Origin: a virus | Length of the DNA stretch: 20,308 bases | Strand: one strand, 5' to 3' | IMG/VR virus record: IMGVR_UViG_3300017732_000092 | Coordinates: 1-20,308 of that record | Notes under the pieces: generated by a model | What the model was told of the DNA's origin: nothing | Databases searched by the model: none | Seen by the model: only the letters and a program-made list of their open reading frames with translations | Program-made: the position numbers and the translations under genes | In this document: positions 1-19,074 of the stretch, in pieces | Numbering within the stretch: position 1 is the stretch's first letter | Layout of the letters: the number at the start of each line of letters is the position of its first letter

Positions 1-78
1 AAATTCATAGAGCAATTTAAGACCGCGAAGCGTCCTAGTAACGAATATATAAAGAAAAACGACAATCAAAAGAAATAG
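1..78 (+). CDS. C-terminal end of upstream gene, possibly small terminase subunit (partial)
   Basis: Frame 1 is open from the left edge to a TAG at 76-78 and encodes 25 residues ending in a Lys/Asn/Gln-rich tail (EYIKKNDNQKK). It stops 10 bases before the large terminase start. In T4-like phages the gene directly upstream of gene 17 is the small terminase subunit (gene 16), and a charged tail would fit. The fragment has no recognisable motif of its own, so the identity rests on position only. It could also be an unrelated small gene. Confidence 0.5.
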   Translation, partial: KFIEQFKTAKRPSNEYIKKNDNQKK

Positions 79-88
79 AAAAAATGAA

Positions 89-1018
89 ATGGGATTTAAA
101 TTATCGAAAAAAGATATTGTAAAAGAGATTGTGAAGTCCGGAAAAGACCCTAAGTACTTCATCAATAACTATTGTCGAATATCTCACCCAATGAAAGGAC
201 TTATACCTTTCCAAACTTATCCATATCAAAACGATCTTATTGATGATTTTAATGATTTTCGTTTTACTGTGATTTTAAAAGCAAGACAGCTTGGAATTTC
301 AACAATTTCGGCTGCTTATTGCGTTTGGCTTATGTTGTTCCATCGCGATAAGAACGTTCTTGTTATCGCAACAAAGTTTGCTACCGCTGCGAATCTCGTA
401 AAGAAGGTTAAAAATATAATGAATTATCTTCCGGAATGGATGCGGGTAGCAAAAATTAAAGTTGACAATAGAACATCCTTTGAGCTTTCAAATGGATCTC
501 AAATCAAAGCTGCTTCTACTTCCGGAGATGCCGGTCGTTCGGAAGCATTGTCTCTTCTGGTGATTGACGAGGCAGCACATATCGACGGACTTGGAGAATT
601 ATGGACAGGTCTTTATCCAACTCTGTCAACGGGTGGTCGCTGTATTGCTCTATCTACCCCTAATGGTGTCGGTAATTGGTTTCACAAAACATACGTTGAC
701 GCAGAAGAAAAGCAAAATGATTTTAAGCCGATTATTCTCCCATGGGACGTGCATCCCGAAAGAGACCAAGCTTGGTTTACTAAAGAAACTAAAAACATGT
801 CTCGAAGACAAATAGCGCAAGAATTAGAGTGTAACTTTAATACGTCCGGTGATACTGTCATACATGCGGACGATATAGCATGGCTAAACGAACAAATAAG
901 AGAACCTCAATATAGAACAGGATATGATAGGAATTTTTGGATATGGGAGAAACACCAAGAAGGAAGCACTTATTTATTGGTAGCGGATGTAGCAAGAGGT
1001 GACGGTGCAGACAATTAA
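89..1018 (+). CDS. gp17: Large terminase subunit, N-terminal ATPase part (frame broken by in-frame stop)
   Basis: Encodes the ATP-driven DNA packaging motor that docks on the portal and fills the prohead. Residues 64-72 (KARQLGIST) form a deviant Walker A motif with the lysine at its start rather than before the Ser/Thr. Residues 156-162 (LLVIDEA) are Walker B with the catalytic Glu161, and ALSTPNG near 187-193 is the coupling motif. The nuclease domain begins near residue 290, and VADVARGDGAD carries its first metal-binding Asp (D300). The frame then meets TAA at 1016-1018, while the rest of the nuclease domain continues in the same frame from 1019. The start is the first ATG after an in-frame stop, with only a weak purine-rich ribosome site. 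The family is certain; whether the gene makes one protein, two, or a dead product is not. Confidence 0.95.
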   Translation: MGFKLSKKDIVKEIVKSGKDPKYFINNYCRISHPMKGLIPFQTYPYQNDLIDDFNDFRFTVILKARQLGISTISAAYCVWLMLFHRDKNVLVIATKFATAANLVKKVKNIMNYLPEWMRVAKIKVDNRTSFELSNGSQIKAASTSGDAGRSEALSLLVIDEAAHIDGLGELWTGLYPTLSTGGRCIALSTPNGVGNWFHKTYVDAEEKQNDFKPIILPWDVHPERDQAWFTKETKNMSRRQIAQELECNFNTSGDTVIHADDIAWLNEQIREPQYRTGYDRNFWIWEKHQEGSTYLLVADVARGDGADN

Positions 1019-1672
1019 GTGTTTCATGTTTTAAAATTAGAAACTATGGAAATTGTAGCAGAATATCAGGGCAAGCCAAATCTTGATATGTATTCTCAAA
1101 TGATATTCTCGGCGGCAACAGAGTATGGAGAGTGCCTCTTAGTTGTTGAAAATAATGGAATTGGCATTTCGGTTTTGGAAAAACTAATTACTCTAGGATA
1201 TCAAAATATCTACTACTCGATCAAAGGAACTCATGAATACATAAGCCAAACTCAAGGCGAACATATGGCAAATACTGTTCCGGGTTTTACAACATCGATC
1301 AAAACAAGACCTTTAGTGGTGGCAAAACTTGAAGAGTTTGTAAGAAATAAAATTTTAAAAATATATTCCTCTAGGACATTTCATGAATTTAGAACCTTTA
1401 TTTGGAATAATGGAAAACCACAAGCAATGAGATCGTATCATGATGACTTAATAATGTCTCTAGCTATTGTATGTTGGGTACGAGATACAGCACTAACTGT
1501 TTCAAAGAGAGATGTAGAATACAAAAAAGCAATGTTGGGTGGTATGTACTTAAAAACAAATCGCCTAAATACTACCATAAAGGGAATGGAAGGTCATAAA
1601 GACGATTTCAAAACTAAATATGAAGAAGAGTTGTCTTTGCCGACAAAGTTCCCATGGATCTTCAAAGGATAA
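1019..1672 (+). CDS. gp17: Large terminase subunit, C-terminal nuclease part (same frame, after the stop)
   Basis: This is the rest of the RNase H-like headful nuclease of gp17. VVENNGIG supplies the second acidic residue (E44 of this part) and YHDDLIMSLAI the third (D142/D143), matching the acidic set known for T4 gp17 (D401, E458, D542). The codon after the stop is GTG, in a position where an intact protein would simply have Val. Both parts together give about 527 codons, close to but shorter than T4 gp17 (610 aa). The nearest SD-like sequence (AGAGGTGA, 994-1001) is about 17 bases from the GTG, too far for efficient initiation, so a natural split gene is not well supported. A point mutation (for example TCA to TAA, since many homologues have Ser here), a sequencing error or readthrough are alternatives. 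Confidence 0.93.
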   Translation: MFHVLKLETMEIVAEYQGKPNLDMYSQMIFSAATEYGECLLVVENNGIGISVLEKLITLGYQNIYYSIKGTHEYISQTQGEHMANTVPGFTTSIKTRPLVVAKLEEFVRNKILKIYSSRTFHEFRTFIWNNGKPQAMRSYHDDLIMSLAIVCWVRDTALTVSKRDVEYKKAMLGGMYLKTNRLNTTIKGMEGHKDDFKTKYEEELSLPTKFPWIFKG

Positions 1673-1678
1673 AAATAA

Positions 1679-3637
1679 GTGGCTAAAAAGAAAAGAAATT
1701 TGGGTAAAAACCCATATAATCCGGAAAATAATTTATTTCGTTCACTAACGAGATTGTTTTCTGGTCCTATAACCAATAGAAGAACACAGACCGGTCGACA
1801 ACTTCGAAGAAGACATTTGGATATATATGCCAATCGTTTCAAGTCAGCATCTGGTAAGCAGTTTAAGAAAGTGGAATACAACCCCATGACTGTTCTCGCT
1901 GCGAATATGATTTCGAATAGAAATCGTAGTGAAAGATATGTTGATTTTGATCAAATGGAATACACACCAGAAATAGCTTCTTCATTAGATATATACGCCG
2001 ATGAAATGACTACTCATTCTTCTCTACAAAACATGTTAAGAATTAGTTGTCCAAACGAGGAGATAAAGTCAATACTAGATAATCTTTACCATAATGTGTT
2101 AAATATTGAACACAACTTGTTTGGGTGGTGTCGTACCATGTGTAAGTACGGAGACTTGTTTTTATACTTGGATATCGAAGAAAAAATGGGTATAAAAGCA
2201 TGCATAGGATTACCAGCACAAGAAGTTGAAAGATTAGAGGGTGAAGATGAATCTAATCCCAATTATGTTCAATATCAATGGAATTCTGCTGGTATGACTT
2301 TGGAAAATTGGCAAATGGCACATTTCAGAATATTAGGAAATGATAAACACGCACCTTATGGAACTTCTGTATTGGAGCCCGCGCGAAGAATTTGGAGACA
2401 GCTTACTCTATTAGAGGATGCAATGATGGCATATCGTATTGTTCGTTCCCCCGAAAGAAGAGTTTTTAAAATAGACGTTGGGAACATTCCTCCACAAGAC
2501 GTTGAACAATACATGCAAAAAGTCATGACTCAAATGAAACGACATCAAGTTGTTGACCCCACAACAGGACGACTAGATTTAAGATATAACCCTTTATCAA
2601 TTGAAGAAGATTATTATATCCCGGTGAGAGGCCAGTCGCAGACTGATATACAAAATCTAGCTGGTGGTCAATTTACTGGTACCGTTGAAGATGTTAAGTA
2701 CCTAAGAGATAAGCTGTTCTCCGCCCTTAAAATACCCCAATCCTATCTTACGATGGGAGAGGGAGCGACAGAAGATAAGACCACTCTTGCCCAAAAAGAT
2801 ATTCGTTTTGCTCGAACAATACAGAGACTACAAAGAGTAGTTATTTCCGAGCTTGAAAAGATTGGTATTATACATTTGTTCACAATGGGTTTTAGAAATG
2901 ATGATCTATTATCATTTAGCTTGAAGCTTAACAACCCTTCAAAGATAGCAGAATTGCAAGAACTGGAACAATGGGACAAAAAATTTAGTGTTGCTGGTAA
3001 TGCAACTGAGGGTTATTTCTCTAGAAGATGGATTGCTGAGAAGCTTTTTGGATTATCGGAAGAAGAATTTTTGCGAATGCAAAGAGAGATGTATCATGAT
3101 AGAAAATTCGCCGCTAGCTTGGAAGCCGCAGGTCAAGCGCCTGAAGCCGGAGCAGGTGGAGGTGGCCTAGGAGATCTTGGCGGTGGAGAAGGTGACCTTG
3201 GTGATTTAGGCGGTGGAGAAGGTGACCTTGGTGATATTGGTGGAGATGCACCTGCTGATGAGCCGGCTGGTGACACAGGTGGAGATGATGAGATACTTCT
3301 TGCTGAGCCACCTGCTAAGCGAGATGATGAAAAGAAAAAAGAAGATAAGCCAAAATACAAAAGAGGTCGATATAAGAGACATAAAACCTCCTACTCCAAG
3401 GGAGGCTTATCAAAGCAATTAAAAAGAACTCACACACCAGAATTTGGTGATACCAATAGGACACTGTTTCCCGGCAAGTCTGGTTTCGGTGGACTTGATT
3501 CTCTAGCTAGAGGAGTTACTGAGGGTACTGACGTGAATAAAATAGAAGAAGAAAAACTATTTAGTACATCTCGGCAAGTAGATCTGTTGATTGAGAGTTT
3601 ATTAAAAACAAAGGTAGCAGAAGATGAAACACAATAA
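1679..3637 (+). CDS. gp20: Portal vertex protein
   Basis: Forms the dodecameric ring at the special head vertex through which DNA enters and leaves, and nucleates prohead assembly. The sequence shows the gp20 family pattern: a basic N-terminus, DIYADEM near residue 105, a wing/crown region, and SYLTMGEGATEDKTTLAQ near residues 355-372 followed by the long helical segment. The GTG start follows AAAGGAT at good spacing. At 652 aa it is well over the 524 aa of T4 gp20. The excess is a C-terminal tail from about residue 485: an Ala/Gly/Asp stretch with repeated GGGEGDLGD units, an acidic stretch, then a Lys/Arg-rich segment around 555-580. ILLAEPPA near 540 contains an LxE, the recognition pattern of the T4 protease, so tail removal during maturation is possible but unproven. 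The end overlaps the next gene by 14 nt. Confidence 0.96.
   Translation: MAKKKRNLGKNPYNPENNLFRSLTRLFSGPITNRRTQTGRQLRRRHLDIYANRFKSASGKQFKKVEYNPMTVLAANMISNRNRSERYVDFDQMEYTPEIASSLDIYADEMTTHSSLQNMLRISCPNEEIKSILDNLYHNVLNIEHNLFGWCRTMCKYGDLFLYLDIEEKMGIKACIGLPAQEVERLEGEDESNPNYVQYQWNSAGMTLENWQMAHFRILGNDKHAPYGTSVLEPARRIWRQLTLLEDAMMAYRIVRSPERRVFKIDVGNIPPQDVEQYMQKVMTQMKRHQVVDPTTGRLDLRYNPLSIEEDYYIPVRGQSQTDIQNLAGGQFTGTVEDVKYLRDKLFSALKIPQSYLTMGEGATEDKTTLAQKDIRFARTIQRLQRVVISELEKIGIIHLFTMGFRNDDLLSFSLKLNNPSKIAELQELEQWDKKFSVAGNATEGYFSRRWIAEKLFGLSEEEFLRMQREMYHDRKFAASLEAAGQAPEAGAGGGGLGDLGGGEGDLGDLGGGEGDLGDIGGDAPADEPAGDTGGDDEILLAEPPAKRDDEKKKEDKPKYKRGRYKRHKTSYSKGGLSKQLKRTHTPEFGDTNRTLFPGKSGFGGLDSLARGVTEGTDVNKIEEEKLFSTSRQVDLLIESLLKTKVAEDETQ
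3179..3238 (+). repeat. Two-copy 30-bp tandem repeat in the portal tail
   Basis: GGCGGTGGAGAAGGTGACCT begins at 3179 and again at 3209, giving two near-identical 30-bp units that encode GGGEGDLGD plus Leu or Ile. A degenerate further copy lies just upstream (GGLGDL). The near-identity at DNA level suggests recent slippage expansion inside the low-complexity Gly/Asp tail. Confidence 0.85.
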
Positions 3638-4442
3638 GAAAAGAAATACCGCTTTTCTTTACGAATGTCTTTTAAAAGAATTGACAAAAACAATTGTAAG
3701 GAAACAAGCTAATGATAAGGAGAATGTAATCTCAATAATAAGAGAAAATTTTTCCAAAGGAAAGATTCTATATCATGATTTGCAATTATATAAATCGATA
3801 TTGGAAAATAATGATAAGATGACATCGGACTTTTCAAAGCGTTTTCTTGTTGAGACTCAAATTGATTTTAAAAAAATCAATAGAAAGTCTGTCTTTAACG
3901 CACAGACAAAGTTAATTTCGCAAATCAATCAAAGTTTGGGATCCAATGTGTTCAAGAATTTTGTTCCAAATTACAAAGATATAGCAACTGTTGGAACTTG
4001 GCTAAATTCAGATTCGTTAAATGCAAAATCTAGATTAATCGTTGAGACAAAGGTGTTGCAAATATTGACGCCTAAAAACAACCAGAAAAAAGAAATGCGA
4101 CATATTGATAATCTAACATATCAAACGTTTATACAAAAATTCAATGAAACCTATAAAAGATCTTTGGGTGACAATCAAAAAGCATTGCTTACAAATTATA
4201 TTGTGTCTTTTTCTGATAATGGGCTTGGACTTAAAACATTTATGAACGAAGAAATAAGTAGGATCAGAGAAAACCTAAGCAACATGTTAAAAAAGAATAA
4301 CCTAGATGAACAATACAGAAGTAACACACAGAAGGTTTTAGATAAACTCGATTCTTTCAAAAAACAACCAATAAATGAGAGTATGGTCAAATCTCTATTC
4401 TATATACAAGACTTAGTGGAGGAGATGAATAATGGCCATTAA
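3624..4442 (+). CDS. Unassigned 272-aa protein between portal and protease
   Basis: I do not recognise this family. The protein is rich in Lys, Asn, Ile and Leu, looks largely helical, has no membrane segment or signal peptide, and has no clear catalytic motif. The start overlaps the portal stop region by 14 nt, with AAAGG about 9 bases upstream, so it is translationally coupled to the portal. In T4 the slot between genes 20 and 21 holds the small core proteins gp67 and gp68; this protein is far larger and not visibly related. Position suggests a head-core or portal-associated role, which is inference only. Confidence 0.85.
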   Translation: MKHNKKRNTAFLYECLLKELTKTIVRKQANDKENVISIIRENFSKGKILYHDLQLYKSILENNDKMTSDFSKRFLVETQIDFKKINRKSVFNAQTKLISQINQSLGSNVFKNFVPNYKDIATVGTWLNSDSLNAKSRLIVETKVLQILTPKNNQKKEMRHIDNLTYQTFIQKFNETYKRSLGDNQKALLTNYIVSFSDNGLGLKTFMNEEISRIRENLSNMLKKNNLDEQYRSNTQKVLDKLDSFKKQPINESMVKSLFYIQDLVEEMNNGH

Positions 4443-7086: not shown

Positions 7087-10000
7087 ATGGCTGAATTCGG
7101 CTGGGCCTTCATCGGTGGGGGCGCTATTACAGAGGCCCTAGGTGTTACCGGGTCAGTATTGCTCAAGAAGGGCGATAAGCAGATCAGTGGATCTTCCAAT
7201 CTTACTTTCAACACAAGCAGCAATCAGCTTGATATAGTCGGAAGCCTAAGTGCTTCTTCTAATATTTCTGCTTCTGCTTTTTATGGTGATGGTTCAAATC
7301 TCACAAACATAGGCGCCGCTGGTAGTAATACACAAATACAATTTAATAACAGCGGCGACTTTGGAGCTTCCGCTAACTTAACATATAATGGCTCGGTGCT
7401 AGCTTTAGCAGGCAATCTAGAAGTATCTGGATCTATTTTTGCAAACGAGCTTGTAACAAATGTAACAAGCAAGAACGTCGTCAACATATCAGCAACTGGA
7501 TCTACACAGTTTGGAGATAGCTCAGACGATATACATACATTTGCTGGGTCCATAACAGGATCAAAAATGAGCTTAACAGGTCTTGCTTCTGGGACTGCTG
7601 CTTCGACTAAATTTGTAGCCCTAGATGATTCGAATAATTTGATATTAACTTCCTCCGGTGCGGGGGCTGGTGGAACACTTGGGGCCGCTGAAGATGGAGA
7701 CTATACTGATGGTCTCTTTTCGGATTTCACCACTAACACCACGGTAGGAACAGCAGTTGATAAAATAAATGAAGTATTGAAGATATTGGCTCCATCGCCC
7801 GCTCCGGCATTATCTAGAGTGAATTCTGATAACACCGCTGGTATTGCTGCAAAACTAAGCTTTGGGGCATCTAGTCCTATTACTGGATATACCTCTTCCG
7901 CAACGGCTGCTGGATTCAGTGCAGTAGATAGAACTGGGACGTATCAATCTGCTACTTCTGGAGATAATTTTAGATTAGGTGTATATGACGGAACACAAGA
8001 TATAACCGGTTTTTTAAATTTTCATGTTACACAAAACACTACAAATGGATATGTTGCTTATTCTACCGATGCTTTTGGCAATGCAGAAACAGGCACATTA
8101 AAACTTGAATTAAATGGAACAGTGATACATTCAATAGCTTTATCCGGGTTAGCTGGTAGCGGCAACCCAAATGCTGGTTCTGCTACTTCTTTAACTTCTG
8201 ACTCTGGTTTTACAAATGTTTCTATTACTGCGTCATCTTTTGATGGAAATAATGCCGAATGGCACATTTTTAAACATCGAACAGCAAAATTTAAAATTGA
8301 TACAAACCAACAAAAAGTCGGATGGAATTATGCGAGAGTAATCCACACAGTTGGAAGCACGGATAATGCAACAAACTTTATCGAATGGATAAATGATCCT
8401 TCTGGTGCTGTCAATGATCTTTCTGTGACAAACGCTAGAATTGAAAACATCTCACTGGTTGGGTCGAAATACTTGTCTGGTGTTCAATATAACACCGATG
8501 TGACAGCAAACTACAAAGCAGATATCAATAATCTGTACAGAAATGTATACGCATCCTCTGGTACTCCGATATCTTTCACGGTGTCAAATAGCAGTACTCC
8601 AGCGGCACAAGCTGTGCCGGATCTCGGAGGAGGAGAAACAAACGCTAAAGTTCTAGGAGTGACGGGGGCTTTAGATTACAATGGGAACTCTTTAATAAAT
8701 GGAGCAATAACAGCCAACACAACTGTCACTCATCCGTTCAAAAACACTATATCGAATCAAGGTTCTGTAACCACCGGCAATGGTTTTTTGATTGACAACA
8801 GAAGTTTGGCAAGTTCAAATCTTTTAGAAAAGTTTCACGATGAAACCTATAGAATAACATCTGGTGCATACGGCTCCCAATCAGATGTCACAGCAGGAGC
8901 CGCAACATGGAATAGTCAAAAACATATGACAGGATCAAATGTTGATGGTCATCAAGATGGACTGTTGTATTTCAATCAAAAATTATATAGTCCCGTTGAT
9001 GGAGACGTACCCAATGGTGGCAATTTCTCAGGTATAACCAATGTAGAGTCTGGTCAACCCAACATGTCCTCTGTTAGTGGCACAAGAACATTTTATAGGA
9101 AGGTGCAAAATACTTCCGGTGCCAATAAGCATGATATGAAAATAGTAAGCACCAAGAATAGTACCACATATAACAATTCTTCCCTAGGTACTGGTAATGT
9201 TCATGTATTTATAAAGATTCCGGAAAAAACGGGATGGATGGATGTATCACAGAACTTTGCTTATAACAATTCCGCTGATGGTAATGGTGCACTGATCAAT
9301 GGAGCGTCCAATGACACAGACTCCGGAGATAATACTCATAATATAACGTTTGGAACATTGACGGTAAATAGTAATGAATATGTTACTGTTAAGATAATAG
9401 CTGATGCTTCTTGGGCCGGTTATATATCTCAATTGCAATTCGTATTTGGTGCATCATCCGAGACACCATCTTCTGCTCCTGCCTTAGACGATATCGATGC
9501 TGATATTTCTGGTACGGATGCCAAATTATCATTTGGATCTTCTAATGGAATTTCTGGATATATTAATGTTCAAGGTTCAGGCGTTGGAGCAATGAGTACT
9601 ATCGATAGTAACGGATCATATACTTTGTCCGGAGATAGAAGGGGTATATTCACCAGCAAAGCAAACTTCACAGGGACTTTAAATGAGGATGTTGGAGCTA
9701 GTGGAAACAATTATCCAAATGATTCATTCTTCAATGGATATCTTGGGTCTTTAGTTTTAGAGGTCAATGGTAGCGAGATTCACACTACAAACATAGCTAG
9801 CAGTCTCAATGCCATAACAAACAATTTTAATGGTAACAACTCCGGCTTTTCTGTTAGTGCTGTGGAATTCTCAAAGACTTCGGATAATATTCCTAGCTAT
9901 CTTAAGCCCTACAGAACAGGAACTTATCAGATAGGGGCGGATGATCAAAGAATCGGATGGAACTACGCTAGGGTTCTACATAGAGTTGGAGGAGGTACAC

Positions 10001-11253
10001 CCGACACAACAACAAATTATGTTGAATGGGCGATAGATCCCTCCGGCGCAGTTAATGATATGGCAGCTTCATCTGTAGCTTTAACTAACTTTGATCATTC
10101 TAATAAATATTATCAGTCTGGTGTTGGATATTTTGCTTCAAGACCAAGTGGAAGCTATAGCTACACAGCGGCAAACGTATATCGAAATACCTACAGTGCA
10201 CTTTCCAATGCATTGACATTTCCTATAACAACAAACTGTTCAATATCAAATATACGTATCTCAGGCGATGGTGTCACAACATTTGACTCGGCAGTATCTC
10301 AAGCTGGTTTGCCAAATCTAGATAATGGAGCAGATTGTGAAGAAGATAACATTGCTGTGGTTGGTACTGTTCTTTTCGATAATCTTACATCAATTGCCGA
10401 AGGTCTCAGTCTATTCACAGACCATGATGTATCGGTTAATTCAACTTTAGTTCATCCTTTCAAAAATAATGTAACTACATCAACCTTGTCAAAGACCTCC
10501 TTTATGGTTTATTCTGGGGCGGTTGGAAGTACAAACTTGAACACCAATGAGTATTTTAATACCGAGACGTATAGGATTGTCTCCGGTAATTACACATCTC
10601 AATTAAGTGCGACATCTTCAGCTAATGCATGGAATTCTGAGTACTCTGTCAATGATCCCGGAAGTTATGCTAGTCATGCCGATGGAATGGTTACGATAAA
10701 TGGATACGCGATATCTCCTTTGAAAATAGGAAACTCAGGAGATACCAGAAACGTAGCTGATGGTGGCTCATTGCAAGCTCCAGCTAATAATCCAAACTAC
10801 TCCACTCTCACAAACAATGTGAGAACCTTCTACAGATATTTTAGAAATCAAACCGGCCTTTCAAAAGCTACATTCTCGATAAAACTATACGGAGACGCCA
10901 ACTTGGTTGCTAAGTCAGGTGCTTTTTATACTGGTACTCTCGGGGCAAACAAAAATATAAATGTTGAATTAAAAGTTCCATCCGACCCAGATTTTACTGG
11001 TTTAGATGATACCTCAACAGCTTGGGGTGATTGTATAAAACCATACTCGGCAGGTGTACAGCCCACATCCGATGGTGTTGGTATATACAATGGCGGTGGC
11101 TCCGGTCTAGATCAAAGTGTGGATGGAGCAGGAGCAACTGTACCTTTGCAACTACAAGAAAAACAAGTCAGAAATACACAATATTTTGTTGTTAAGATTT
11201 CCGCACATAAAGATTGGACAGGATATCTGTCCAGAGTTGAGATGATATACTAA
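7087..11253 (+). CDS. Giant fibre/adhesin-type structural protein with internal tandem duplication
   Basis: A 1388-aa protein, rich in Ser, Thr, Asn and Gly and poor in charge. Residues about 20-190 are short beta-repeats of phage-fibre style (SASAFYGDGSNLTNI, GSNTQIQFNNSGDFG). Residues 236-793 and 794-1388 are two diverged copies of one large unit. Shared landmarks are PALSRVN/PALDDID then AKLSFG, GWNYARV (about 412 and 957), EW-x-x-DPSGAVND, HPFKN (549 and 1123), ETYRI-x-SG, TFYR, and a final W-x-GY(I/L)S. The start has AGAGAGG a few bases upstream, and the stop overlaps the next start (TAATG). It is probably a virion fibre or surface adhesin. No enzymatic motif or intramolecular chaperone domain was seen. 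Confidence 0.9.
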   Translation: MAEFGWAFIGGGAITEALGVTGSVLLKKGDKQISGSSNLTFNTSSNQLDIVGSLSASSNISASAFYGDGSNLTNIGAAGSNTQIQFNNSGDFGASANLTYNGSVLALAGNLEVSGSIFANELVTNVTSKNVVNISATGSTQFGDSSDDIHTFAGSITGSKMSLTGLASGTAASTKFVALDDSNNLILTSSGAGAGGTLGAAEDGDYTDGLFSDFTTNTTVGTAVDKINEVLKILAPSPAPALSRVNSDNTAGIAAKLSFGASSPITGYTSSATAAGFSAVDRTGTYQSATSGDNFRLGVYDGTQDITGFLNFHVTQNTTNGYVAYSTDAFGNAETGTLKLELNGTVIHSIALSGLAGSGNPNAGSATSLTSDSGFTNVSITASSFDGNNAEWHIFKHRTAKFKIDTNQQKVGWNYARVIHTVGSTDNATNFIEWINDPSGAVNDLSVTNARIENISLVGSKYLSGVQYNTDVTANYKADINNLYRNVYASSGTPISFTVSNSSTPAAQAVPDLGGGETNAKVLGVTGALDYNGNSLINGAITANTTVTHPFKNTISNQGSVTTGNGFLIDNRSLASSNLLEKFHDETYRITSGAYGSQSDVTAGAATWNSQKHMTGSNVDGHQDGLLYFNQKLYSPVDGDVPNGGNFSGITNVESGQPNMSSVSGTRTFYRKVQNTSGANKHDMKIVSTKNSTTYNNSSLGTGNVHVFIKIPEKTGWMDVSQNFAYNNSADGNGALINGASNDTDSGDNTHNITFGTLTVNSNEYVTVKIIADASWAGYISQLQFVFGASSETPSSAPALDDIDADISGTDAKLSFGSSNGISGYINVQGSGVGAMSTIDSNGSYTLSGDRRGIFTSKANFTGTLNEDVGASGNNYPNDSFFNGYLGSLVLEVNGSEIHTTNIASSLNAITNNFNGNNSGFSVSAVEFSKTSDNIPSYLKPYRTGTYQIGADDQRIGWNYARVLHRVGGGTPDTTTNYVEWAIDPSGAVNDMAASSVALTNFDHSNKYYQSGVGYFASRPSGSYSYTAANVYRNTYSALSNALTFPITTNCSISNIRISGDGVTTFDSAVSQAGLPNLDNGADCEEDNIAVVGTVLFDNLTSIAEGLSLFTDHDVSVNSTLVHPFKNNVTTSTLSKTSFMVYSGAVGSTNLNTNEYFNTETYRIVSGNYTSQLSATSSANAWNSEYSVNDPGSYASHADGMVTINGYAISPLKIGNSGDTRNVADGGSLQAPANNPNYSTLTNNVRTFYRYFRNQTGLSKATFSIKLYGDANLVAKSGAFYTGTLGANKNINVELKVPSDPDFTGLDDTSTAWGDCIKPYSAGVQPTSDGVGIYNGGGSGLDQSVDGAGATVPLQLQEKQVRNTQYFVVKISAHKDWTGYLSRVEMIY
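7792..9465 (+). repeat. Large protein repeat, copy 1
   Basis: Codes for residues 236-793 of the 1388-aa protein. It begins at PSPAPALSR and ends just before the equivalent PSSAPALDD of copy 2. The copies are related at protein level but clearly diverged in DNA, so the duplication is old. Confidence 0.82.
9466..11250 (+). repeat. Large protein repeat, copy 2
   Basis: Codes for residues 794-1388. It is about 37 residues longer than copy 1, mainly through insertions in the middle and near the C-terminus (a Gly-rich segment around residues 1337-1353). Its end coincides with the end of the protein. Confidence 0.82.
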
Positions 11254-12461
11254 TGAGTACGGGAAAAACAAACTTAACTTCAACCCAGTTCGCAGCTAAA
11301 AAGCTGTTGGGCAAAGCGCACACATCCAATCTCAAAGGCGATGTCAATGAGTCGATACCTTCAAATGTTTCAATTGTTTCAGATGGTGTGTTTGCAGAGT
11401 CTATACCAAACTCTCCGGGAACCGATACATATACAGGATACAGTGCATCTGCTGGTGGACCGGTAACTACTGAAAAGGTGTTTTTTGATGTGGTGGCTAT
11501 TTCAGATACCATATATGATGCAAATGATGCTGGTGGCGGTGGAGATGAGTCGTCCGCGAGTGGTACACATGGTTACTACCTAAAGCTACCATCTAACTAT
11601 GAATCAGTCTCAGCAAATTCAGATCGAGGCAATGGCAATTATACTAATGGAAAGAGAGTTTACGATTCGCGTGGTGGACTACAATTGGTGCCCCCATTTG
11701 CCTCTAATGCAAGTCCCAATAGATATTTCTTACAACTATGGAAAGGTGATCCAACAGACGCTGCTAATGAGATAACATCCGGAGATTCAGTTGACTGGCA
11801 GGTTGATTATTATTCGGGAGTTGTTTTTGTGCAGGACTATAATGCATCAACAATACCTGTTACCGCATCTGCTTATCTTTATATTGGTAAATACCTAAAT
11901 GAGAAAATATCATCAGGTACAAATTTAACAGTAAAAGATGAAGGATCGAATTTAACAACTGAAGCCGGTAGTTTAAATTTTGTTGGTGCCGGGGTAACCG
12001 CTACAACATCCGGTGCCGATGTGACCGTTACAATTGCCAATGCTTCTTTGGTAGCAAAAGATGAAGGATCGAACCTAACAACACAAGCAGCGAGCTTTGA
12101 CTTTGTTGGTAATGGAGTAACCGCTACAACATCCGGAGATGATGTAACAGTAACGGTCACAAAAGGAATAATATTTTCTAGAACAGCAGTTACTGTAGAT
12201 GTAACTGCTTCAGTTTCGTCTGCAATACTTGGAGTATCAGCTTCATCAGCCTTACAGATCAGACTGCCCTCAGCGGGAGATTATGAGGCTGGTCAATATT
12301 TTACAATAAAAGATGAGGCAGGAAATTCCAATACAAATAACATAACAATCATAGCCACAGGAGCGGAAACTATTGACGGGCAAACCTCTATAATCCTCGA
12401 ATCACCTTATGCAGCGGTGAATTTATACTCAGATGGAACGTCAAAATTCTTCATCTATTAG
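11253..12461 (+). CDS. Fibre protein with 41-residue tandem repeat and C-terminal knob-like module
   Basis: A 402-aa protein coupled to the previous gene through TAATG. Residues 1-215 form a globular-looking region (DWQVDYYSGVVFVQDY near its end). Residues about 227-308 are two copies of a 41-residue unit (KDEGSNLTT ... FVG-x-GVTATTSG-x-DVTVT). The last 60-70 residues (FTIKDEAGN, ETIDGQTSIIL, YAAVNLYSDG, KFFIY) are a beta-rich end module seen widely in phage fibres; a related module ends the next protein. Likely a tail fibre or head fibre with the C-terminal module as trimerisation or binding tip. Function inferred from composition and context. Confidence 0.88.
   Translation: MSTGKTNLTSTQFAAKKLLGKAHTSNLKGDVNESIPSNVSIVSDGVFAESIPNSPGTDTYTGYSASAGGPVTTEKVFFDVVAISDTIYDANDAGGGGDESSASGTHGYYLKLPSNYESVSANSDRGNGNYTNGKRVYDSRGGLQLVPPFASNASPNRYFLQLWKGDPTDAANEITSGDSVDWQVDYYSGVVFVQDYNASTIPVTASAYLYIGKYLNEKISSGTNLTVKDEGSNLTTEAGSLNFVGAGVTATTSGADVTVTIANASLVAKDEGSNLTTQAASFDFVGNGVTATTSGDDVTVTVTKGIIFSRTAVTVDVTASVSSAILGVSASSALQIRLPSAGDYEAGQYFTIKDEAGNSNTNNITIIATGAETIDGQTSIILESPYAAVNLYSDGTSKFFIY
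11931..12176 (+). repeat. Tandem 123-bp repeat, two copies
   Basis: Two in-frame 123-bp units (11931-12053 and 12054-12176) encode 41 residues each. Stretches such as AAAAGATGAAGGATCGAA and GTAACCGCTACAACATCCGG are kept at DNA level in both copies, indicating fairly recent duplication. Confidence 0.85.
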
Positions 12462-12468
12462 GTACTTT

Positions 12469-12476
12469 TATAAATT
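12469..12476 (+). promoter_or_regulatory. Possible T4-type late promoter element
   Basis: TATAAATT matches the T4 late -10 consensus TATAAATA at seven of eight positions and lies in the short gap before the highly repetitive 826-aa gene. A transcript from it would have to pass the hairpin at 12497-12518. No other convincing intergenic copy was found in the window, so this is weak. Confidence 0.25.
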
Positions 12477-12496
12477 GTGTTTACTATTTAAGATCG

Positions 12497-12518
12497 AGGG
12501 CCCTACGTGGGCTTTTGT
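12497..12518 (+). terminator. Rho-independent-type terminator after the 402-aa fibre gene
   Basis: GGGCCC-TACGT-GGGC followed by TTTTG: four G-C pairs (12500-12503 with 12509-12512), extended by G-T wobbles and one A-T pair, a 5-nt loop and a short T-run. The short T-run suggests partial termination, leaving some readthrough into the next gene. Confidence 0.65.
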
Positions 12519-12543
12519 CATATTTTCTTGGAGGAATATATTT

Positions 12544-15024
12544 ATGGCTTATAAATTTCAATTAGGTGCTGCTGTACTCAGTGGTTCCATTAAAGCAGAG
12601 GACGGTCTCGTTGCAACTGATGTTGACGATACTACCGCTGCTAACATTATCGCACAAGTCGATGCTGGAGAAATTCCAATTGCAAAACTTGCTGCAAAAA
12701 CAATTTCCGGTAAGGATCTTGGTGCAAACTTGGACAATCTTTCTTTGTCTTCTAACTCCGGTCTTGGAATGTCCGGAAACTATAACGGCTCTGCTGCTGT
12801 TTCTTTTGGACTTTCTTTGGATAGTCTTGCTGCTGCTGATGTTAACGTTGGTGCGGATTTTTTAGCTCTATATGATGCTGACGCTGATGCTACCGTAAAG
12901 GAATCTATTGCTGACCTTGCTACTGCAATGGCTGGTTCTGGTATTGCTGCTGCTTCTGGTGTATTTTCTGTAGATATCGATGAGCTTTCTGCTCTTGGAT
13001 CTGCTGCTCTTCATCAAACTCAAGATCACTTCATGTTTTCTGACAATGGTACTGAAAAGAAGATTACTTTTAGCAATCTTCAAGATGCCGTTTTCGCAGA
13101 TGTAAGTGGTGATGTTGCTGTTGCTGCCGGTGGTGCTGCTACAATTCAAGCAGACGCTGTTGAAGGTTCAATGCTTAATGACAATGTAATTTCAGGTCAA
13201 ACCGAGTTGGCTCACGCTGACATCGTTGCTGCTGATGAACTTATGATTTCTGATGGTGGTACTCTTAAAAAAGTTGGTGTAGATAGTCTTGGTGATTTTT
13301 ACTACGGTAATGTTTCTGGTGACGCTACAATCGCTGACGGTGGTGCTTTGACTATTGGAGCGGCTGCTGTTGAAGGTTCCATGCTTAATGTTAATGTTGT
13401 TACTGGTCAAACTGCTCTTGCGAACGGTGCTGCTGTAGCTGCTACTGATGAATTGTTGATTGCTGATGCTGATGCTGGTTCTCTTAAGAGAGTTGACACA
13501 CAACATTTGGCAGACTTCATTTATAGTAATGTCTCCGGAGACGGTACAATTGCTTCTGGTGGTGCTCTTACTATAGCTAACGATGCTATTGAATCTGGAA
13601 TGCTTAATGATAATATTATTTCGGGCCAAACTGCTCTTGCTGCTGGTAGTGATCTCGCTGCTACTGATGAATTGTTAGTTTCCGATGCTGGTGTTCTTAA
13701 AAGAATCGATGCTCAACATTTTGGTGATTTTATTTATAGCAACGTTTCTGGTGATGCAACAATTGCTTCTGGTGGTGCTCTTACCATAGCTAACGATGCC
13801 GTAGAGCAAGCAATGATCGCAGACGATGCTGTTGGTGCAGACCAATTGGCCTCAGATGCTGTTGTAAATGCTTCCGTAGCTTCAAACGCTGCAATTGCTC
13901 TTTCCAAGATCAACACCAATGTTGATATGGGTGGCTCTTTCACAATCGGTAGTCAATCTGATGATGTTGCTACATTTACTGGTGGTCTTATCGTTGGTGG
14001 CGACTTGACAATCAATGGTACAACCACATCTGTTAACTCTACTACTATTAACATCACTAGTTCTTTCACTTTCGAAGGCCCTGCTGATGCTCACGAGACC
14101 ACTCTTACTTGTGGTACTCCTACAGCGGACATCACAGTAACTTTACCACAATACAACTCTGCTGGAACTGTTCACATGGCTGTTCTTGCTGATGCGACTA
14201 CCGCTGCTGCGGCTGCTGTAACTGCTGCTGAGTTTGCTCTTCTTGATGGTGGTTCTACTGTTGGAACAACTGCTCTTGCTTCTGGTGATGGTTTCCTTCA
14301 CAATGATGGCGGAACAATGAAGCATACCTCTATCGATAAGCTTGCTGATCTATTTGCTGGTAACGGTCTTTCTTCCGCTAGTGGTGTTATGGCTCTTGAT
14401 ATTGATGAAATGGCAGAACTCTCTGCTGCTCCTCATGCTAGTGAAGATATGTTTGCTGTTTCTGATAACGGTACAGAAAAGAAAGTATCTATGACTAATG
14501 TTGCTAATGGTGCTTTTGCTCTTGTTTCTGGTGATGTTTTGATCGCTTCTGGCGGTGCTGCAACAATTCAAGCAACTGCTGTTGAAGGATCTATGCTTAA
14601 TAACAATGTTATTTCTGGTCAATCCGATATCGGTGCTGCAATCGTTGCAACTGACGAGATCTTGATCTCTGATGCTGGTACTATCAAGCGTACAGATATG
14701 TCTCGTATCAAAACCTACATTGGTTCTGGTAAAGCTGCTATTAATGCTATCGGAGATGCGAATGGAACTCTTGCTGTTGGTGTTAACGCTCCTTCTGCGA
14801 ATGCTTCTGCTTCTCGCACATGGACTCTTCCTGCTTCTGCTGATTTGGAAGTTGGTGAATCAATCGTAATCAAAGCTTATGGTAACGCAGGGGCTCAGCC
14901 TTTGACGATCGCTCAAGCTGGTTCTCAAGAAATTGACGGTTCTACCGCTAATCTCGTACTTGAATCAGACAACGCGGCTATTACTTTGTATTATGTTGCT
15001 GCTGACACTTTCGTAATCGTATAA
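12544..15024 (+). CDS. Ala-rich modular repeat structural protein (826 aa)
   Basis: ATG at 12544 was chosen because TTGGAGGAA is a strong ribosome site before it; the open frame extends upstream only through the terminator. Residues 1-21 form an N-terminal motif shared with the 604-aa fibre. The body consists of roughly 70-residue modules of the form VSGD-x-x-IASGGALTIA ... SGQTALA ... TDELL-x-SDAG-x-LKR(I/V)D ... DFIYS. Three full copies start at 13099, 13309 and 13528, with a partial one at 13741 and another full one near 14521. A larger module (GSASGV-type, DIDE, SDNGTEKK) occurs at 12934 and again at 14359. The end (ESIVIKAYGN ... EIDGSTANLVLES ... AAITLYY) resembles the end of the preceding fibre. 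Ala is mostly GCT and Leu often CTT, a bias shared with the capsid gene and suggestive of high expression. Probable abundant virion fibre or decoration. Confidence 0.9.
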   Translation: MAYKFQLGAAVLSGSIKAEDGLVATDVDDTTAANIIAQVDAGEIPIAKLAAKTISGKDLGANLDNLSLSSNSGLGMSGNYNGSAAVSFGLSLDSLAAADVNVGADFLALYDADADATVKESIADLATAMAGSGIAAASGVFSVDIDELSALGSAALHQTQDHFMFSDNGTEKKITFSNLQDAVFADVSGDVAVAAGGAATIQADAVEGSMLNDNVISGQTELAHADIVAADELMISDGGTLKKVGVDSLGDFYYGNVSGDATIADGGALTIGAAAVEGSMLNVNVVTGQTALANGAAVAATDELLIADADAGSLKRVDTQHLADFIYSNVSGDGTIASGGALTIANDAIESGMLNDNIISGQTALAAGSDLAATDELLVSDAGVLKRIDAQHFGDFIYSNVSGDATIASGGALTIANDAVEQAMIADDAVGADQLASDAVVNASVASNAAIALSKINTNVDMGGSFTIGSQSDDVATFTGGLIVGGDLTINGTTTSVNSTTINITSSFTFEGPADAHETTLTCGTPTADITVTLPQYNSAGTVHMAVLADATTAAAAAVTAAEFALLDGGSTVGTTALASGDGFLHNDGGTMKHTSIDKLADLFAGNGLSSASGVMALDIDEMAELSAAPHASEDMFAVSDNGTEKKVSMTNVANGAFALVSGDVLIASGGAATIQATAVEGSMLNNNVISGQSDIGAAIVATDEILISDAGTIKRTDMSRIKTYIGSGKAAINAIGDANGTLAVGVNAPSANASASRTWTLPASADLEVGESIVIKAYGNAGAQPLTIAQAGSQEIDGSTANLVLESDNAAITLYYVAADTFVIV
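12934..13308 (+). repeat. Large module of the 826-aa protein, first copy
   Basis: Encodes GSGIAAASGVFSVDIDE, then SDNGTEKK, then a VSGD-type unit. It is repeated 1425 bp downstream (14359 to about 14730) as GNGLSSASGVMALDIDE, SDNGTEKK and a VSGD unit. The paired block shows duplication of a composite module, not only of the single 70-residue unit. Confidence 0.78.
13099..13740 (+). repeat. Three tandem roughly 70-residue modules
   Basis: Unit starts at 13099, 13309 and 13528 (spacing 210, 219 and 213 bp), each opening with (D/N)VSGD and containing SGQT or TGQT and a DEL(L/M) ... LK(R/K) segment. A fourth, truncated unit starts at 13741 and leads into a different segment. Confidence 0.85.
14359..14730 (+). 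repeat. Large module of the 826-aa protein, second copy
   Basis: Second copy of the composite module starting at 12934, with the VSGD unit at about 14524 followed by VEGSMLNNNVISGQ and TDEILISDAG. The end is approximate. Confidence 0.75.
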
Positions 15025-15050
15025 ACCAAATACACAAGATTTACTCTTGG

Positions 15051-15080
15051 GGGTTCCGACTTTTGTCGGGCCCTTTTTTT
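15051..15080 (+). terminator. Strong rho-independent terminator after the 826-aa gene
   Basis: GGGTTCCGAC-TTTT-GTCGGGCCC followed by seven T residues. Five pairs (CCGAC/GTCGG) plus a G-T wobble, one bulged T and three G-C pairs form the stem, with a TTTT loop. This is the clearest terminator in the window and separates the 826-aa gene from the next unit. Confidence 0.9.
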
Positions 15081-15115
15081 ATTTGAGAATAATTACTCTA
15101 GAACGTGGAGGAATT

Positions 15116-15802
15116 ATGTTCGCCTTATTAACATCTCTTTTATTTGGAGGAGAGCCAATACCAGAAATTGTTGTGGAGTCTCATGCAGACATTGAAATTT
15201 TTGTTGCTCCAACAACAGTAATTAACAATACAAAGATACCTTATCAACTTGACTCAACATCAGTGTTCGGACACACTATAAATGATGCCCGTAATGCCAA
15301 AAAATTGACACAATATGGTTATGTTTCAATCGATGAAGACATTTACGTGTATAACCCCGATACAATAAAATTCGCATGGGAAAATTGCAACTATTCGGCA
15401 AATTTTCGGAAGTGTTCTCATGAGAATGGACACTACCTTCTGGAGAGTTATATTGTCTTTAACAAAGAACAAGTGACTGTTCGTCTTATTCTTTTTGATG
15501 AGAACATGACACCTGTCCATCAATCGGTTCAAAACAATACGAGAATAATGAAAATATTTAAAAGACAAAAAGTATCGAGAGCAATTATTCCCATGGGTGG
15601 AACATCAGTGGCACCTAGAAGACAATGTGGTCCAACATCCTGTTCAACAGTTAGAGGGGGTGGTGGTGGATCAATATCAGCTTACACCCAAACAACAACT
15701 GAGGATCTTGAACCATCCGTGGTTATTATTGAGCCGAGACTACTAGATAGAGATATACAACAAGCGTCCGTAAGATTATGGACTTCAGTGAGGATTGATT
15801 AA
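15116..15802 (+). CDS. Unassigned 228-aa protein in the fibre block
   Basis: ATG at 15116 follows GTGGAGGAATT, a very strong ribosome site; the frame also runs upstream into the terminator, which is not coding. The first dozen residues are hydrophobic (MFALLTSLLFGGEP) but lack the positive charge of a classic signal peptide. Residues about 25-150 alternate polar and hydrophobic in beta fashion. Four Cys lie in two pairs (ENCNYSANFRKC and QCGPTSC), followed by a run of five Gly near residue 178. The stop overlaps the next start (TAATG). Not recognised; probably a virion or fibre-associated protein by position. The cysteine pairs could bind metal or form disulfides if exported. Confidence 0.83.
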   Translation: MFALLTSLLFGGEPIPEIVVESHADIEIFVAPTTVINNTKIPYQLDSTSVFGHTINDARNAKKLTQYGYVSIDEDIYVYNPDTIKFAWENCNYSANFRKCSHENGHYLLESYIVFNKEQVTVRLILFDENMTPVHQSVQNNTRIMKIFKRQKVSRAIIPMGGTSVAPRRQCGPTSCSTVRGGGGGSISAYTQTTTEDLEPSVVIIEPRLLDRDIQQASVRLWTSVRID

Positions 15803-17616
15803 TGTCATATAAATATACAAAAGGATCAACAGTTCAAGGCGATATCAAAGCAGCCGATGATACAGAAAGAAATACAATCATTGATTTTGGTGAAGACCAG
15901 ATCGAATTTCAAACAAGTGGATCTACTAGATTAAAAGTGGATAATAATGGTGTGAAAGTAAGCGGCGTGAATCTGGGTGTTGGAACAGGACAAGGCGGAA
16001 GTTCAGATGGTGGAGGAAATCCAGTTTATACAAACGGAGAAGCGAATCCTAAATATACTATTCATGCAATTGGAGACATAAACAACGGTGCCGTTTTTGC
16101 AACTGAAACTTATGCAGACTCGGTTGGAGCAAGCAAGTTTAGATTTATAAAAGCAAGAGGAACACCGGGCTCTCCGGCTGGAGTTAACACAGATGATGAG
16201 ATTGGTAGATTAGAGTTTTATTCACACATAGGCTCTGATGCTTTTAAGCTTTCCGCAATGATTCTAGGTACTGCTGATTCGGATGGAGATGGTAAACTTA
16301 GCTTTAGAGCAACTCACGGTGGTAGCGATAATGAGGCATTTTATATACACAATAACCTTGCAAGATTCAATGATCAAATTGTATTAGGATCTTCGGGGAT
16401 GGTTCCATATGCAAACAAAGGAGCATCTCTTGGAGGAGCAAGTTCTCAATGGAATCAAGTAAACGCTGCAACAGTTAAAGCTTTCGAGACCCTTTTCGTC
16501 GGAGCAACAAATCAGATATTCGATCAGTCTGGATTAGGTATAGGTATAAACGATGATTATGAGCCACACGGCAACAATTCAGATATGGAAGGTTTAATCA
16601 TAAATACCAAGTATACTTCATCAAGTAATTTAGTTTTGGGACTTGTTAAGACAGGATCTCATACAGTTGGTATAGGAACGGCTGGTACTGGTAATTCAAA
16701 TGAGAAGCTAGTTTTCTTTGGAGAATACAACACAACTTCATTTGAATTTAGAAACAATGTTGGGACCGCCCCTCTTGGATTACAGACTTCTGGTAGTGTA
16801 TTGATGACTTTGTCCGCTGCTGGGAATCTAGGCATAGGATCGGCAAGTCCGATATCAAAACTTGATGTTGCAGGAAAAATTGCAATTACCGCTGAATCTG
16901 CAACACCCTCTCAGCCCTCTGATGGACAAGGCTATTTGTATACAAAGTCTGATGGTAAGCTATACTGGAGGTCTTATGATGTTACAGAGACTGATCTGAC
17001 TTCCGGTGGTGGTGGTTCACCTGCCGGTAGCAATACACAGGTTCAATATAATAACAACGGATCTTTTGCCGGAAATGCTAGAATGACGTTTGATTCAGAC
17101 GATGGTGCTTTGGCAGTTAGTGGATCGGTTCAAGTGATAGGCGAAGAATATATCGTACCAAAAGAATTAACTACTGATGCTGATAGGCGAATGTGCTTTA
17201 CCCTTAAGAGGCAATTTCACTTTAGCAACTCCGCCGCAAACACTTGGCATGATGTGATTTCATGGAGACCTTATGTGGCGGGCGGTTCGTCAGATCCCGG
17301 CGATAATACTTTTTGGGGAGCAGTATCTTTTAAACAAGAAATGTCCGGACATCAAAGCGGTGTTGGAAACGGATACCGCAGCAGAGTTGGAATGGTACAA
17401 TATGAAGGATCATCAGCAAGTGCTGCGTCGGCAACGGATACGAATTTTGGCTCCCCAGTTACTTTTCGGGTCAATAGATCCGGATGGGTAACAACCTTGC
17501 AATTTAATCCTAATTCTGGTGGTTCACTTGGTTTCATTGGTATGTGTTATGTTGAGATACACTTTGCTAGAGGAGCCGGCGGAAACGGAGCGAATATTTA
17601 TTGGAGCATAACATAA
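15802..17616 (+). CDS. Tail-fibre/receptor-binding type protein (604 aa)
   Basis: Typical phage fibre composition and motifs. The N-terminus YKYTKGSTVQGDIKAADD resembles the start of the 826-aa protein. IDFGEDQIEFQTSG and LKVDNNGVKVSG are beta-repeat shaft segments. LGGASSQWNQVNA near 210-222 and LGIGSASPISKLDVAGKIAI near 345-364 are patterns common in fibres that often precede a C-terminal tip domain. GSNTQVQYNNNGSFAGNARM near 408-427 matches a segment of the 1388-aa protein. The last 150 residues form a distinct domain with several Trp, ending HFARGAGGNGANIYWSIT, probably the tip. No peptidase or chaperone end domain is evident. Coupled to the upstream gene by TAATG. Confidence 0.88.
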   Translation: MSYKYTKGSTVQGDIKAADDTERNTIIDFGEDQIEFQTSGSTRLKVDNNGVKVSGVNLGVGTGQGGSSDGGGNPVYTNGEANPKYTIHAIGDINNGAVFATETYADSVGASKFRFIKARGTPGSPAGVNTDDEIGRLEFYSHIGSDAFKLSAMILGTADSDGDGKLSFRATHGGSDNEAFYIHNNLARFNDQIVLGSSGMVPYANKGASLGGASSQWNQVNAATVKAFETLFVGATNQIFDQSGLGIGINDDYEPHGNNSDMEGLIINTKYTSSSNLVLGLVKTGSHTVGIGTAGTGNSNEKLVFFGEYNTTSFEFRNNVGTAPLGLQTSGSVLMTLSAAGNLGIGSASPISKLDVAGKIAITAESATPSQPSDGQGYLYTKSDGKLYWRSYDVTETDLTSGGGGSPAGSNTQVQYNNNGSFAGNARMTFDSDDGALAVSGSVQVIGEEYIVPKELTTDADRRMCFTLKRQFHFSNSAANTWHDVISWRPYVAGGSSDPGDNTFWGAVSFKQEMSGHQSGVGNGYRSRVGMVQYEGSSASAASATDTNFGSPVTFRVNRSGWVTTLQFNPNSGGSLGFIGMCYVEIHFARGAGGNGANIYWSIT

Positions 17617-17667
17617 TATCAGATAGAGCAACAGAGATAAAAAACCGGAAAGAAAGTCATAATAACC

Positions 17668-17742
17668 ATGGAAAAGATGATTCGCAAATTGAAACAAATT
17701 ACTAGTGAATCCTTCTTTGAAGAGTACTTAGAGGCTAAGTAA
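17668..17742 (+). CDS. Possible 24-codon ORF upstream of the scaffold gene
   Basis: ATG at 17668 to TAA at 17742 encodes a 24-residue amphipathic, charged peptide beginning MEKMIRKLKQI and ending FFEEYLEAK. Purine-rich GGAAAGAAAG lies upstream but farther than ideal. It sits in the 198-nt gap between the 604-aa fibre and the scaffold. It could be a small core peptide, a leader or the remnant of a gene; the support is weak. Confidence 0.3.
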   Translation: MEKMIRKLKQITSESFFEEYLEAK

Positions 17743-17814
17743 AACAGTAATTAGTCTTTTTCTCGTATTTAGCACTATTTACAGATGATACGTATATACT
17801 AGGAGAAAACATTA

Positions 17815-19074
17815 ATGTCTTCAATGTTAGAACAAGCTATCGTGGACGCTAAAGCTCTACGAGAAGCAGCACTTAAAAATGCAGAACAAGCAATAATTGA
17901 AAAATATGCACCAGAGATTAAAAAAGCAGTTGATTCTCTACTGGAGGAGTCAGACAAAGACACCATTATAGAGAACCAAGAAGGTGAGAAAGAAGTGATT
18001 AAAGAAGAACAAGAAGCTTCTCCAGATACCGGCTTTTCCGCTCCTCATGCTTTCAATCCTTTGGATACTGGTGAATCGGTTCAATACAATGCGAAGTTTG
18101 AAGAACCAGTCTATGAATTCAATCTTATGGACTTTGAACCCAAAGAAGAAACCACAGAGGAGCCAGCGATGGATCTTGGTGGACTAGGTGGATTAGAAAC
18201 TCCAGAGACCCCAGAAGAACCCAAAGCTGGTGGAGGAGATGAATTGGATCTTGGAGATCTCGATGCATTGCAAGAATCCAAAAGCAAAGATTACAAACAG
18301 GGTTACAGCGATGCTATAGCAGGTCATGAAATGGCTGATGATGCGCCTCGTGATGGTGGTTACGATGATGGCTACAAAGCAGGTGAAGCCGAGAGATTAG
18401 AGCAAGATTCTAAAGCAGGACGCGAAATTAAAAATCTTAAGAAAGAAAACAACAGTGAAGAAGATGGCATCATGGAACAAATCATGGAACTTCTTGGCGA
18501 GATGGATGATGATCTTCTCGAAGAAGAACTTATTGTTGATACATCCATGCAAAAGAATGGAACGTTCGAGACAAATGAAGCAACTCTTCAATATATGCAA
18601 GAGCTTGAGTTGGCTAAAAGAGAGTCAACAAAGTATAAAGAAGAGAACGAAGCTCTTGAAGAAAAACTAAAAGAATTAAAAGAAAGCTTTAAAAAGCTTA
18701 CATTAAAGAACAAACAGTACAAAAGCGTTGTTGAGAAGATCAATGAGAAACTTAACGAAACACTTTTGTCAAACGCTAAGTTGCTTTATAGCAACAAAAC
18801 ATTGTGCGATGCCTCCTTGAATGAGCGACAAAAATCAAAAATTGTCGAAGCCATCGCAAAGGCTAAAACTCCCGAAGAAGCGAAATCTCTTTGCGAAGCT
18901 CTGAATGCTACAGTGACATCTGGGAACAAGAAACATAATCCTAGAACTCTTAGCGAGTCCGTGCAAAGAAAATCAAATCTATCTGGAATTTTGCCACGTA
19001 GAAATAAGCAAGTTAATGAATCTACCGAGCATCTTTTTGCCGAGAAGATGAAAAAACTTGCTGGCATTAAATAA
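17815..19074 (+). CDS. gp22: Prohead scaffold (core) protein
   Basis: Immediately upstream of the capsid gene, as gene 22 is in T4, and with the expected acidic, coiled-coil composition. Residues 1-50 are helical (LEQAIVDAKALREAALKNAE), with the Glu/Lys-rich pattern of core proteins. The middle (about 120-160) is low-complexity Gly/Leu/Asp/Glu, and residues 160-190 have two GY-x-D-x-x-x-AG motifs. A long coiled coil occupies about 265-325, and the C-terminal part (LLYSNKTLCDASLNERQKSKIVEAIAKA, split here by role) resembles scaffold ends of marine T4-like phages. At 419 aa it is much longer than T4 gp22 (269 aa). AGGAG precedes the ATG by 9 bases. Expected to fill the prohead and be degraded by the gp21-type protease. 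Confidence 0.87.
   Translation: MSSMLEQAIVDAKALREAALKNAEQAIIEKYAPEIKKAVDSLLEESDKDTIIENQEGEKEVIKEEQEASPDTGFSAPHAFNPLDTGESVQYNAKFEEPVYEFNLMDFEPKEETTEEPAMDLGGLGGLETPETPEEPKAGGGDELDLGDLDALQESKSKDYKQGYSDAIAGHEMADDAPRDGGYDDGYKAGEAERLEQDSKAGREIKNLKKENNSEEDGIMEQIMELLGEMDDDLLEEELIVDTSMQKNGTFETNEATLQYMQELELAKRESTKYKEENEALEEKLKELKESFKKLTLKNKQYKSVVEKINEKLNETLLSNAKLLYSNKTLCDASLNERQKSKIVEAIAKAKTPEEAKSLCEALNATVTSGNKKHNPRTLSESVQRKSNLSGILPRRNKQVNESTEHLFAEKMKKLAGIK

Follow-up and report, generated by a model that had tools for sequence, protein, structure and literature searches.

The window analysed here is the whole 20,308-nucleotide stretch of the IMG/VR virus record IMGVR_UViG_3300017732_000092, in which a large terminase gene (terL) is followed by genes for the portal, the head maturation protease and the major head protein. 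The letters of the record hold an in-frame TAA within terL at 1016-1018, and a GTG at 1019 opens a second open reading frame directly after it, with the frame unchanged. The features that bear on this interruption are as follows.

89 to 1018, plus strand: upstream part of terL, with the ATPase domain, the linker and the first strand and first Asp of the nuclease; 309 aa; Terminase_6N, 5.6e-10; ended by the premature TAA
983 to 1003, plus strand: first nuclease motif, ADVARGD, which stays on the N-terminal fragment and aligns with the LDCSEGR region of T4 gp17
1016 to 1018, plus strand: in-frame TAA; its middle base, 1017, is the sole difference from contig L001 over window positions 1-4357; Ser in all relatives examined
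1019 to 1672, plus strand: downstream part of terL, with nuclease motifs 2 and 3 and the C-terminus; 217 aa; phrog_24361 (terminase), 3.5e-14
1142 to 1159, plus strand: nuclease motif 2, VVENNG, with E354 at 1148-1150, from the alignment with gp17
1436 to 1456, plus strand: nuclease motif 3, YHDDLIM, whose Asp pair aligns with the third catalytic position
1679 to 3637, plus strand: portal gene, intact, next downstream of terL; phrog_213, 2.4e-73

Judged by its sequence, the gene is an ordinary large terminase of the T4 gp17 type from an uncultured marine phage. The ATPase domain matches Pfam PF03237 (Terminase_6N) at 5.6e-10, above the family cut-off, and the ATPase part also matches phrog_5989 and phrog_2. 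When the frame is read through the stop, it aligns with T4 gp17 over residues 8-468 of PDB 3ezk (E = 3.4e-44) and residues 8-467 of 3cpe, and the two-domain layout, the nuclease motifs and the downstream gene order are alike in the two systems. The catalytic triad of the T4-family nuclease is D401, E458 and D542, and T4 packages its DNA with gp17 as the motor protein (PMC3012670). Three acidic residues of an RNase H-fold nuclease align with gp17 on this read-through, with the stop falling between the first and the other two: the first catalytic Asp is D300 (codon 986-988), and the TAA, which takes the place of residue 310, follows ten residues later. In contrast to gp17, the chain has a premature stop, and it has one in this record only. 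Flavobacterium phage vB_FspM_immuto, the nearest named phage, is distant (46.6% identity over 91% of the terminase query) and, unlike this record, carries its terminase as an intact single gene; a megablast search of the window against named phages gave no match.

The Walker A motif also differs from that of T4 gp17, being KARQLGIST, with no Lys in the place of GKT, where gp17 has RQLGKTT. Across this terminase clade (window 278-304) the motif reads KARQLGIST in 108 of 117 aligned copies and KGRQLGIST in eight, with Ile replacing the usual Lys of GKT/GKS and a Lys opening the motif. The gpA protein of phage lambda has a deviant Walker A, likewise with Lys at the motif start, which resembles KARQLGIST.

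The remaining genes of the window are open, so general decay is not seen, and most genes of the window terminate with TAA; the sequence-only reading had noted several such ends in holding the genetic code to be unchanged. Elsewhere in the window, a 30-base tandem repeat of 2.5 copies (3160-3235) codes for Gly/Asp-rich GDLGDLGGGE near the C-terminal part of the portal protein, and a 213-base tandem repeat in nearly two copies (13381-13799) lies inside an 863-aa open reading frame at 12433-15024. This frame and the other large ones in 7087-19074 have no PHROG match.

Relatives of the phage were collected in a scan of IMG/VR, which gave 80, with 79 covering the site of the stop. They align across residues 1-527 as one tblastn segment, and this, together with the structure alignments to gp17, bears out the earlier proposal that the frame is the same and homology continuous on both sides of the TAA. 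Its placement of the stop between the first and second nuclease motifs is likewise confirmed, since ADVARGD (Asp at 986-988) and VVENNG (Glu at 1148-1150) flank the codon. All 79 relatives that cover the site have Ser at the position of the stop, and so has every one of the 142 copies aligned from a wider set of loci that partly comprises the same contigs. The codons used are TCT, TCA, TCC, TCG and AGT; to pass from TCN to AGT takes more than one base change by way of a residue other than Ser, yet both are in use, so it is apparently the residue itself that is selected and the Ser appears to be held at this position by selection. The claim that homologues often have Ser here and that one base makes the stop thus stands, although close relatives mostly show DNS-V-FHV in place of the DYS-x-FHV given with it.

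Among 146 related loci, whose terL genes total about 70,000 codons, none showed an interior stop or frameshift in that gene. A few in-frame stops do occur in the relatives' portal or protease alignments, at alignment ends near the start or natural end of the gene, and offer no parallel. Nitratidesulfovibrio phage SRB7757 has terL in two pieces, parted at Walker B of the ATPase domain, elsewhere than here. In that phage (PV062637.1, about 2000-2390 of the locus) terminase homology is broken just past Walker B by an insert that begins CVTGDTMVTVKGTG and looks like the start of an intein.

The closest comparison is with contig L001 (IMGVR_UViG_3300017759_002544), which aligns without gaps to window 1-4357 and is identical at 4,356 of the 4,357 bases. 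Base 1017 alone differs; the codon in L001 is Ser and its terL is intact. TerL is a single continuous chain in this contig and in all relatives, and in the present record it is not. A second contig, L002, has 98.3% identity over 5,300 bases and again Ser at the stop codon; it differs from the window by 81 synonymous codon differences, four replacements and the one stop. Differences that are so nearly all silent point to purifying selection in this population both before and after the stop. A pattern scan of viral contigs for the 25 bases around the site, allowing either base at 1017, found an exact match in L001 only, with the sense base, and searches for other near-identical contigs through the protease, a tail-region gene and the capsid gene gave best protein identities of 87, 89 and 69%, respectively; such searches may omit the records closest to the window, and further TAA-bearing contigs may exist. 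Coverage apart, the situation that the sequence-only reading named as a refutation, in which related genomes are all intact and this one is a lone variant, is what was found, every relative examined being intact and the TAA private to this contig. The contig that differs by one base all but settles the question of the stop.

Several readings of the stop as a real feature can be weighed against these comparisons. Stop-codon readthrough or local recoding, giving a full-length motor, would suit a frame that runs on with both halves well conserved, but every relative examined is without the stop, including the otherwise identical L001, and the conserved stop of a programmed event is replaced by Ser in all 79 and all 142 copies. 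Moreover, no tRNA gene that might act as a suppressor lies within the 20.3-kb window, the scope of that search, and most window genes end at TAA; together these speak against general recoding. A reading of TAA as Ser is not known as a phage code. Readthrough, which the earlier note had listed as an option, is thus unsupported and seems very improbable. Even less credit can be given to a split motor, also on that list, with ATPase and nuclease as two chains and the second restarting at GTG 1019. The GTG adjoins the stop, which makes a coupled restart thinkable, and a short PHROGs terminase family, phrog_24361 (162 positions), matches the C-terminal piece. However, the break does not separate complete domains; it cuts through the RNase H fold after nuclease motif 1 and before motif 2, leaving the first catalytic Asp on the N-terminal chain and the motif 2 Glu and motif 3 Asp on the other. 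With the catalytic residues so parted, a complete nuclease would be present on neither chain. Upstream of GTG 1019, only weak anti-Shine-Dalgarno pairing is predicted (-3.1 kcal/mol, compared with -5.4 for the portal and -12.8 for the capsid), but the start of terL itself has even weaker pairing (-0.9 kcal/mol), so the argument from the ribosome site is soft. No relative examined is split at the stop site, and the intact close relatives make an evolved split very unlikely. A very recent real split, in which translation restarted at GTG 1019 to give two chains that joined through an open beta-sheet and so restored the nuclease, is scarcely credible either. Internal starts in T4 gene 17, invoked earlier in support of a separate nuclease product, were not confirmed in the titles and abstracts of the literature, in which neither such starts nor natural terL splits bearing on this break were found; a C-terminal piece without the first catalytic Asp would in any case not be helped by starts of the T4 kind.

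A rare but real nonsense variant deserves more weight than these, though it too is unlikely. The genome or sub-population concerned would be unable to package its DNA unless an intact co-infecting relative helped, and would be a dead end and not a lineage. The assembled consensus carries the A at 1017, L001 shows that an intact twin occurred in nature and could act as helper, and packaging is lost in gp17 ATPase mutants (PMC3012670). On the other side, a genome that has lost an essential gene would not be expected to make up the consensus of a population, and no second difference separates the window lineage from L001 over 4,357 bases.

A sequencing or assembly error in this contig is the probable explanation of the TAA. 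Since natural differences in the population are nearly all silent, one taken alone would seldom be nonsense, whereas the nonsense share of random substitutions in these genes is 5.4% (12.3% for random C>A/G>T changes). Near-identical relatives cover only the left 5.4 kb of the window, so that any judgement of its error rate applies to that part and not to the other 15 kb. A lone difference that is nonsense in an essential gene looks unselected, that is, either an error or a variant not yet through selection, and one substitution alone cannot separate error from mutation. The change at 1017 is a C:G to A:T transversion. The shearing of DNA forms 8-oxo-guanine, which gives rise to changes of this type; the artefact described consists of low-fraction errors in human capture data, and the match here is by type of change only (PMC5521083). 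The wrong base may have arisen at library preparation, at sequencing or in consensus calling at thin coverage. The error and dead-phage options of the sequence-only reading are both supported by the private stop and by the Ser in an otherwise identical contig.

To summarize, the stop is most likely no real biological feature and, failing an error, most likely marks a single dead variant. The case is mainly a caution: anyone who meets a single in-frame stop in a metagenomic contig should compare near-identical contigs before proposing that the gene is split or recoded. The phage itself would very probably have Ser at this codon and make the protein as one ATPase-nuclease chain.
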